Part shown: one piece after another, positions 25,878-27,644 of the stretch
Layout of the letters: every line of letters starts with the position of its first letter
Position numbering within the stretch: the first letter of the stretch is position 1
Assembly (NCBI GenBank): GCA_902577905.1
Contig: CACHAQ010000016.1
Span: forward strand, 1-33,928
Origin: an uncultured Alphaproteobacteria bacterium
GTDB taxonomy: Bacteria; Pseudomonadota; Alphaproteobacteria; HIMB59; GCA-002718135
Length of the DNA: 33,928 nucleotides
Direction: 5' to 3'
Position numbers and translations under genes: made by a program
The notes under the pieces: generated by a model
The model's input: the letters and a program-made list of their open reading frames with translations, nothing else
What the model was told of the DNA's origin: nothing
The model's database searches: none

Positions 25878-26477
25878 GGATAATTTAATTTTACTTTCAG
25901 TTTTGTTTATGAGTCTTTTAATGTTTTCTGTGTGTTTAAGATAAATAATTAAAGTTAAATAAATAAAGAAAATTAGAATATAAAAATTAAAATTAATAAA
26001 AATATAATAAGCTGGAGCTACTAAAACTCCAATTAAAGATCCAAGAGAAGAGTATTTACTTACAAAAGCAGTAACAAGCCATACTAATAAAAATAAAAGT
26101 GCAATGTAAGGATTAAGACCAAATAAGAAACCAATATACGTTGCTACACCTTTTCCACCTTTAAATTTTAACCAAACAGGATAGATATGACCTAATATGG
26201 CAAAGTGACAGAGAAGTATTTTATTCAATAAAGAAATATCTTGAAAATATATTTGTAAAATGAGGAATGGAAGAAAACCTTTAAAAATATCAAAACAAAG
26301 AACAATGAATGCTACAAATTTATTTCCTGTTCTTAAAACATTTGTTGCACCTACATTTCCAGAACCAACCTTTCTAATATCTCCCAAGTCAAATAATTTT
26401 GTAAAAATCAATGCAAAGGGTAATGATCCTATTACATAGAACAATATGATTAATGATAAACTACTTACTAAAGTCAT
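25872..26477 (-). CDS. plsY: Acyl-phosphate glycerol-3-phosphate acyltransferase
   Basis: PlsY transfers an acyl group from acyl-phosphate to glycerol 3-phosphate, the first step of phospholipid synthesis, at the inner membrane. The 201-residue protein has about five membrane helices and the three cytoplasmic motifs: GSLPFALI, SGNVGATNVLR (about 38-48) and the KFKGGKGVAT glycine-rich motif (about 105-114). The ATG overlaps the 3' end of pyrB by 17 bases. In many alphaproteobacteria pyrC lies between pyrB and plsY, and here it is absent. Confidence 0.95.
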   Translation of the reverse strand: MTLVSSLSLIILFYVIGSLPFALIFTKLFDLGDIRKVGSGNVGATNVLRTGNKFVAFIVLCFDIFKGFLPFLILQIYFQDISLLNKILLCHFAILGHIYPVWLKFKGGKGVATYIGFLFGLNPYIALLFLLVWLVTAFVSKYSSLGSLIGVLVAPAYYIFINFNFYILIFFIYLTLIIYLKHTENIKRLINKTESKIKLSK

Positions 26478-27606
26478 CTCTGTTTTTAATAATTAAATCT
26501 AAGCATGCCATTCGTATAGCAACACCCATTGCGACCTGTTCTTGTATTAAGCTCCTCGTGACGTCATCAGCAAGTTTTGAGTCTATTTCTACACCACGAT
26601 TCATTGGGCCTGGATGCATAACGAACGCATTTTTTTTTGCATATTTAAGTTTATTGTAATCTAATCCATACTTTTTAAAATAAGTCTTTTGATTTGGCAT
26701 TATTTTCCCAACTATTCTCTCTTTTTGAATACGTAGCATCATAACAATATCACAATTTTGTAATCCCTTTTTCATTTCCGTATAAACATTCACAGGAAGT
26801 TTATTTAAACTTTTTGGTAACCATTCCTTAGGTCCAATAACATTTATTTTTGCACCTAGCTTTGAGAGTATTATTATGTTTGATCGCGCAACACGACTAT
26901 GTAAAATATCTCCGCATATAGCAATTTTTAATTTTGAAAAATTTTCAAATTTATTTTTTATAGTAAGTGCATCTAATAACGCTTGTGTAGGGTGTTCATG
27001 ACTTCCATCACCTGCATTGATTACAGAGGCATCGACTGACTCAGAAATTTTTTTACTAATTCCTTCCTCCGGATGTCTGATAATTAAAACGTCAGGATTC
27101 ATTGAATTAATAGTAGTCATAGTATCGAGTAAGGTTTCACCTTTATTTATAGAACTATCTTTTACCATCACATTAATGAGATCTGCTCCCAATCTTTTAG
27201 CAGCAACTTCAAAACTTGTTCTTGTTCTTGTTGAATCTTCAAAGAATAGATTAAATATTGTTCTTCCTTCTAGAACATTTATTTTTTTAATTTTCCTTTT
27301 ATTAAAAAATATATATTTTTTAGATTCATCTAAAATGTGCTCAATTTCTTTCTTGGTTAAATCAGCTGTTTCTACTAAATGAATTTTTTTAAAAATATTT
27401 TTCGTTCGTTTTAGATTTATATTTGTTTTTGAAGAAATTGATGAATAATATTTTAAGGCTATTCTTTCTGCATCTTTAAGAATTTTTGAACCTGTAGATG
27501 ATCTGATCGCTTTTAATTTTGGCAACTTTACTTTCATTTGCCAATATTTTGAATTTTCTCTTTTGTATAATTTTATGTGTCCTGATTTAAGTAGCTTTGA
27601 ATTCAT
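26461..27606 (-). CDS. pyrB: Aspartate carbamoyltransferase with N-terminal integrase-arm-like extension
   Basis: The catalytic part (from about residue 68) condenses carbamoyl phosphate with aspartate in pyrimidine synthesis. It has STRTRTSFE (125-133), the loop lysine Lys155 (INKGETLLDT), His205 in EHPTQALLD, and HPGPMNRGVEI. The whole ORF is 381 residues against about 310 for the family. Residues about 8-60 (SGHIKLYKRENSKYWQMKV, then IRSSTG and DAERIALKYY) match the N-terminal arm-type DNA-binding domain of phage tyrosine integrases, by pattern recognition. ATGs exist only at residues 1 and 24, both inside this extension. No GTG or TTG lies near the catalytic boundary, so a translated fusion is the simplest reading. 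Confidence 0.92.
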   Translation of the reverse strand: MNSKLLKSGHIKLYKRENSKYWQMKVKLPKLKAIRSSTGSKILKDAERIALKYYSSISSKTNINLKRTKNIFKKIHLVETADLTKKEIEHILDESKKYIFFNKRKIKKINVLEGRTIFNLFFEDSTRTRTSFEVAAKRLGADLINVMVKDSSINKGETLLDTMTTINSMNPDVLIIRHPEEGISKKISESVDASVINAGDGSHEHPTQALLDALTIKNKFENFSKLKIAICGDILHSRVARSNIIILSKLGAKINVIGPKEWLPKSLNKLPVNVYTEMKKGLQNCDIVMMLRIQKERIVGKIMPNQKTYFKKYGLDYNKLKYAKKNAFVMHPGPMNRGVEIDSKLADDVTRSLIQEQVAMGVAIRMACLDLIIKNRDDFSK

Positions 27607-27635
27607 ATGTGTTAATAATGTGTAAGTATGTGTAA
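27607..27635. repeat. Three direct repeats upstream of pyrB
   Basis: The 38-base gap between ruvX and pyrB holds ATGTGTTA (27607-27614), ATGTGTAA (27618-27625) and ATGTGTAA (27628-27635). The repeats are spaced 11 and 10 bases apart, about one helical turn. The first directly abuts the pyrB start codon. On the pyrB strand they read TWACACAT. This is the layout of an operator or of integrase arm-type sites, but with short AT-rich units chance cannot be excluded. Confidence 0.55.
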
Positions 27636-27644
27636 ACTAATTTA

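Follow-up and report, generated by a model that had tools for sequence, protein, structure and literature searches.

A probable integrase-derived regulatory module, domain and repeats together, on the aspartate transcarbamoylase gene of an uncultured alphaproteobacterium

What is an extra N-terminal domain doing on a core biosynthetic enzyme? The question is raised by pyrB in a 33,928-nucleotide stretch of DNA from an uncultured alphaproteobacterium (contig CACHAQ010000016.1 of assembly GCA_902577905.1; the whole stretch is called the window here). Its product, aspartate transcarbamoylase (ATCase), carries an extension that a first-pass annotation, made from the sequence alone, had likened to the arm-type DNA-binding domain of tyrosine integrases. 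SAR11 genomes are small and poor in regulators, so the control of nucleotide synthesis in these bacteria is an open question. On the evidence below, this PyrB probably carries a captured arm-binding domain and, in front of its gene, arm-type-like sites, the two making a likely autoregulatory module. The sites, three direct repeats upstream of pyrB, are absent from the first-pass account.

The homology of residues 1–57, the N-terminal domain (N-domain), to the arm-binding domain of tyrosine integrases is well supported by profile comparison. A profile built from ten PyrB N-termini (A1) matches in 16 of 385 genomes of the class, two of these matches being PyrB fusions and 14 full or partial integrase open reading frames (ORFs), the best of which has an E-value (E) of 6.1e-8. 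In the reverse direction, a profile of 119 integrase-family N-domains run against 4433 ORFs recovers 88 fused PyrB ORFs, including that of the window (E 7.5e-7), and the next ORF follows at E 0.68. The integrase-like pattern first noticed at residues 9–53 therefore stands far above chance both ways. Residues R16, W22, Q23 and R35 are invariant across 17 PyrB and 15 integrase N-domains. The AlphaFold model of the N-domain, whose input alignment included integrase rows, consists of four strands and a helix (β-β-β-β-α; predicted local distance difference test score, pLDDT, 88.9), so that the three- to four-stranded sheet on a C-terminal helix found in arm-binding domains is present in the prediction. 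The proposal that an integrase arm-type domain is fused to a core enzyme is thus supported by the two-way search and a compatible predicted fold.

Residues 1–69 have no match in Pfam, PHROGs or NCBIfam, the curated arm-binding models (Pfam Arm-DNA-bind families) included. The first-pass annotation had named a lack of integrase-profile matches as the result that would speak against it; that is what these three libraries return, and the custom searches in both directions contradict it. The absence from curated libraries says little, because three integrases of the same subfamily likewise receive no N-domain match in Pfam. The N-domain model, compared with the sequences of solved structures, found nothing below E 1.5, and a model of full-length PyrB was too poor for use. 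The N-terminal position of the domain is common to PyrB and to integrases such as KplE1 IntS and P4-like enzymes (e.g. PDB id: 3rmp), and the domain has profile homology to an uncurated alphaproteobacterial integrase subfamily along with a predicted sheet-plus-helix fold. Unlike in integrases, the domain is followed by a metabolic enzyme: the core-binding and catalytic recombinase domains are missing from the window PyrB, residues 76–371 of which are ATCase according to Pfam, and no attachment core was seen, although no search aimed at one was made.

The remainder of the protein is an ATCase catalytic chain. Both carbamoyltransferase domains (residues 76–217 and 225–371) score above the Pfam curated cut-off, and the NCBIfam equivalog PRK00856 identifies the aspartate carbamoyltransferase catalytic subunit at 404 bits against a cut-off of 263. 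Residues 76–373 align end to end with the whole Bacillus subtilis-type ATCase catalytic chain (PDB ids: 2at2, 3r7d; E 6e-67); known ATCase chains begin at the point that corresponds to residue 76 of the window protein, and nothing in their aligned part matches the extra domain. The ORF has the position, strand and length first reported (381 residues). The extension, put at about 65 residues, is slightly longer, about 70–75, because the Pfam catalytic domain starts at residue 76 and because the PyrB-grade matches (E < 1e-60) found in 21 of 24 genomes of the sister family f2 all start at query residue 70–79.

Sequence comparison shows that the extension is genuine and no mis-called start. ATG does occur only at codons 1 and 24, as first stated; the accompanying statement that codons 25–80 hold no ATG, GTG or TTG errs in one detail, codon 28 being TTG, but this codon falls inside the N-domain, so the catalytic part still lacks an ordinary start close by. 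Two further observations argue against a mis-called start: the extension is kept down to PyrBs of 70–73% identity (L102 and L103), in which M24 is replaced by I or L, and the linker that follows the N-domain, 16–19 residues long in 80 intact sequences, changes by whole codons only. The alignment of PyrB N-termini and ruvX–pyrB spacers from sister genomes, which the first-pass annotation had suggested as a check, finds extension and repeats conserved in the fused genomes and f2 PyrBs without the extension. In one genome (locus L093, which covers the stretch also numbered L027) an A-run in the linker region, about 170–190 bases into pyrB, is longer by one A; this breaks the frame, either by assembly error or as a real break.

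The second element of the module lies in the spacer between ruvX and pyrB, which reads, toward the start codon, TTTACACATACTTACACATTATTAACACATATG. A triple ACACAT like that of the spacer did not occur in 100 shuffles of the window. The exact triple is found in 12 of 41 genomes, as a single copy in each and always directly before pyrB, and in none of 16 f2 genomes; a reversed control pattern gave one match. Among 44 unique upstream sequences (81 in all), CACA stands at −16 and −5 in every one and at −26 in 40; the four with shifted CACA belong to more distant genera, where the three repeats are spaced at 11 bp and, in three of the four sequences, the first repeat is degenerate. Positions −20, −18 and −7 of the spacer are variable. 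In the five fused genomes searched with a looser pair pattern, the only copy lies at pyrB, which leaves no sign of a second target there; the unfused genome searched (G528, discussed below) has no copy. No canonical sigma-70 site was recognised in the 38-bp spacer, which says little in an AT-rich genome. The repeats are likely the cognate sites of the N-domain. The CACA common to all of them could instead mark the sites of another protein unrelated to the N-domain, such as DnaA, whose box is TTWTNCACA. The T required two bases ahead of CACA is, however, not conserved (at −18, T 19, A 17, G 7, C 1; at −7, A 29, G 9, T 6), and DnaA boxes are rejected as the identity of the repeats. The repeats are also absent where the domain is absent, and related integrases have them without pyrB; sites for another protein are a very improbable explanation.

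Repeats of this kind also precede many related alphaproteobacterial integrase genes. In one locus (L298) the upstream sequence is TTACACA-N4-TTACACA-N3-TTACACATG, with spacings of 11 and 10 bp, and other integrases have pairs at 11 bp. A strict tandem TTACACA lies within 200 bp upstream in 10 of 38 nonredundant integrase loci, compared with 0.18% in shuffles, and is commoner where the integrase domain is more like that of PyrB (9 of the 19 top-ranking loci against 1 of the 19 lower ones; Fisher p 0.004, for a 19/19 split chosen after the data were seen, with some loci, L297 and L300, near relatives and L296 dropped as a duplicate). None of 23 other integrases from SAR11 genomes has the strict tandem. 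Among 21 close integrases, four of them plasmid integrases carrying a placeholder score, a pair of CACA cores at 10–12 bp is found in 15 and a triple in four (0.9% and 0.016% in shuffles).

Five genera, all of one Pelagibacterales family, have both the domain and the repeats. Full-length matches to the window PyrB, starting at residue 1 or 2, come from 24 genomes including its own, all of its genus, in a set of 61 relatives. The extension is carried by 74 of 79 loci taken from genome records; the five exceptions are four loci truncated at contig ends and a Rhodospirillales PyrB that lacks it. An order-wide search with A1 matched 83 of 162 genomes, 82 of them in family f1 (g1, g277, g278, g279 and g281); the remaining match, in f2, is weak (17.6 bits) and contains a stop. 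A1 was unmatched in at least 20 g1 genomes, and the four inspected (G079, G483, G484 and G019, two of them at ≥90% completeness) have no PyrB-grade match, reflecting an assembly gap or loss of pyrB.

In G528, the single genome of g280, PyrB begins with MKNKFCYKNKHLIES right after the ruvX stop, and domain and repeats are both absent. A six-protein tree groups this genome with g277, g278 and g281 (97/98), and a clade restricted to the fused rows is rejected (approximately unbiased test, p-AU 0.0216), with the limits that g281 is a long branch, g280 is represented by one genome and the forks inside the g277/g278/g280/g281 group are open. A quick tree made before it gave G528 the same place; a tree of PyrB alone was unresolved. 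The grouping and test just given speak against g280 as the primitive state. Since G528 appears nested among fused genera, one gain in the family ancestor, followed by joint loss of domain and repeats in g280, is favoured, though not proven.

The pairing of domain type and repeats in integrases has exceptions. In a phylum-wide sample of 398 genomes one of 11 new integrase loci has a strict pair, another shows two copies of TAGCACA, and L392, which scores best, has no repeats within 200 bp upstream; the pairing is therefore common in the alphaproteobacterial integrase subfamily and not universal. At pyrB, the domain was lost in one genus and evolves faster than the catalytic part. Within the genus the ratio of nonsynonymous to synonymous substitution rates (dN/dS) comes to 0.105 in the N-domain, 0.14 in the linker and 0.036 in the catalytic part; against relatives of 80–93% identity, where dS is near saturation, the values are 0.084, 0.383 and 0.046. 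The N-domain is under purifying selection, less than the enzyme, and the linker is nearly free. The loss and the faster evolution would suit a relic, in which domain and repeats are integrase-derived and no longer bind and the domain is kept as part of the folded enzyme, for solubility or assembly. A structural relic, however, would have no need of the CACA cores, which are noncoding, invariant at two of three sites in the 44 unique sequences while the spacers vary, and absent where the domain is absent; we consider a relic unlikely. As a separate observation, four loci from two genomes of another class (L392, L393, L400 and L401) encode integrases whose N-domains closely resemble that of PyrB (E as low as 2.4e-11) but which have about 25 residues ahead of the domain and no tandem repeats upstream; these integrases may place their arm sites elsewhere.

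How such a module might work is suggested by two known systems. Integrase N-domains bind arm-type DNA sites, and IntS, the integrase of prophage KplE1, is reported to bind at its own promoter and to repress its own gene (PMC2951348). The same study predicts similar layouts for 61.5% of 1273 tRNA-associated integrase genes and reports that single mutations of most arm sites left repression in place (PMC2951348). Like such integrase genes, pyrB is directly preceded by tandem repeats with a spacing of about 11 bp. The other parallel is trifunctional PutA, a metabolic enzyme which carries a ribbon-helix-helix DNA-binding domain and acts as autogenous repressor of the put regulon (PMC5293562). By homology and sequence PyrB shares with PutA a small N-terminal DNA-binding-type domain fused to an enzyme and candidate operator sites at its own gene; the PyrB domain differs in being integrase-type, with arm-type-like sites and a predicted repression.

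Autoregulation of PyrB is, on this analysis, the best working hypothesis. N-domain and repeats were likely captured together from an integrase, and the fusion may have arisen by decay of an integrated element, as the first-pass annotation had proposed. The PyrB N-domain would bind the three repeats as DNA and, when PyrB is plentiful, repress transcription of pyrB and of the following plsY and topA. The ATCase catalytic chain is a homotrimer in solved relatives, and such a trimer would have three N-domains available for three sites that share one helical face. It is somewhat more likely than not that a whole mobile-element control circuit, arm-binding domain and arm-type sites alike, came to be domesticated on PyrB, the trimer reading three phased sites to set its own level. 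The earlier suggestion of a DNA-binding, possibly self-regulating PyrB is strengthened in that the repeats abut the start codon, are conserved with the domain and are missing where it is missing.

Binding might instead be directed at RNA, with PyrB controlling translation by attaching to the repeats in the leader of its mRNA. The third repeat does end one base ahead of the start codon, and double-stranded-RNA-binding folds appear, at low Z, in the list of structural matches; but the homologous domains are those of integrases, whose known arm-type sites are DNA, the 10–11 bp phasing suits double-stranded DNA, and a comparison with Rfam gave no match. RNA action is accordingly improbable, and DNA-level autoregulation is preferred.

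PyrI was found in none of eight genomes of the window's family, so control of the amount of PyrB may stand in for allosteric control. The same absence, together with the lack of a gene between pyrB and plsY, could suggest that the extension replaces an ATCase partner, the inactive dihydroorotase PyrC′ or a PyrI chain, and acts by protein contacts. The five f2 loci inspected share their gene order (gatC / ruvX-pyrB-plsY-topA) with f1, and no ORF of any kind lies between pyrB and plsY in the window, in f1 or in those f2 loci, so the pyrC′ neighbour of class A ATCases is missing; yet f2 lacks the extension. Loss of a partner and gain of the extension are therefore uncoupled, and the extension is rejected as a PyrC′ substitute. 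Since the domain also matches a DNA-binding family, replacement of a partner is the least probable of the explanations considered.

If the autoregulatory reading is true, a DNA-binding domain was co-domesticated with its sites, and some of the ocean's most abundant bacteria have an integrase-derived trigger enzyme. A mobile element seems to have given a core enzyme a ready-made switch, protein and DNA part together, for which the unfused sister genus g280 is a natural control. Full-text searches of open-licence papers listed none that, judged by title and abstract opening, seemed to describe an ATCase–integrase fusion. Coordinates of the locus are given in Table 1.

Table 1. Features of the pyrB locus in the window
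Feature	Position	Strand	Basis
pyrB, 381-residue fusion of integrase-type N-domain and ATCase catalytic chain	26461..27606	-	ORF and domain matches
ATCase catalytic part, residues 75–381 and stop	26461..27384	-	Pfam, NCBIfam, B. subtilis ATCase alignment
Linker, variable, residues 58–74	27385..27435	-	least conserved stretch, whole-codon length changes, highest dN/dS
Arm-binding-like N-domain, residues 1–57	27436..27606	-	profile homology, predicted fold, dN/dS about 0.1
ruvX–pyrB spacer, 38 bp, with three repeats	27607..27644	-	
Direct repeat 3, TAACACA, one base ahead of start codon and 11 bp after repeat 2	27608..27614	-	
Direct repeat 2, TTACACA, 10 bp after repeat 1	27619..27625	-	
Direct repeat 1, TTACACA, arm-type-like site	27629..27635	-	

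A near source of the domain was sought in phages and in SAR11 itself. Phage records gave no match to the domain (tblastn, E up to 10), and of 52 stretches of viral contigs found with a 63-residue domain query none was confirmed. Among viral contigs scanned for three ACACAT, the 80 loci listed gave no domain match better than E 1.1. The resident SAR11 integrases are rejected as the near source, since the best of them reaches E 0.059 (3.9 bits) against the PyrB profile.

Some other frames deserve mention. Two metagenomic proteins join the PyrB N-domain to IspH-type sequence (P0007, 245 residues) and to sigma-54 C-terminal-type sequence (P0074, 223 residues); they lie on contigs of 948 and 2716 bases and are probably assembly chimaeras. 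In P0132 (387 residues, 8086-base contig) the frame of an integrase of the PyrB-like subfamily runs on into a short-chain dehydrogenase. Four f1 loci (L274, L275, L276 and L292) encode a tyrosine recombinase in a frame of 355–365 residues, immediately preceded by the inverted repeat TTACGATAACTGTAATTATCGTAA; many genomes of the genus have PF00589 matches in frames of that size, and none was found in the window's assembly. The starts of resident phage-type integrases of SAR11 (L279, L283 and L285–L291) are, as seen by eye, directly preceded by tandem repeats of about 11 bp whose motif differs for each type: TGTCACAA, GTACCAC, GTTGCACT, TTGCCCT, GGTCACA and ACCGACG. Tandem repeats of this period before integrase starts are possibly a general rule for arm-type sites.
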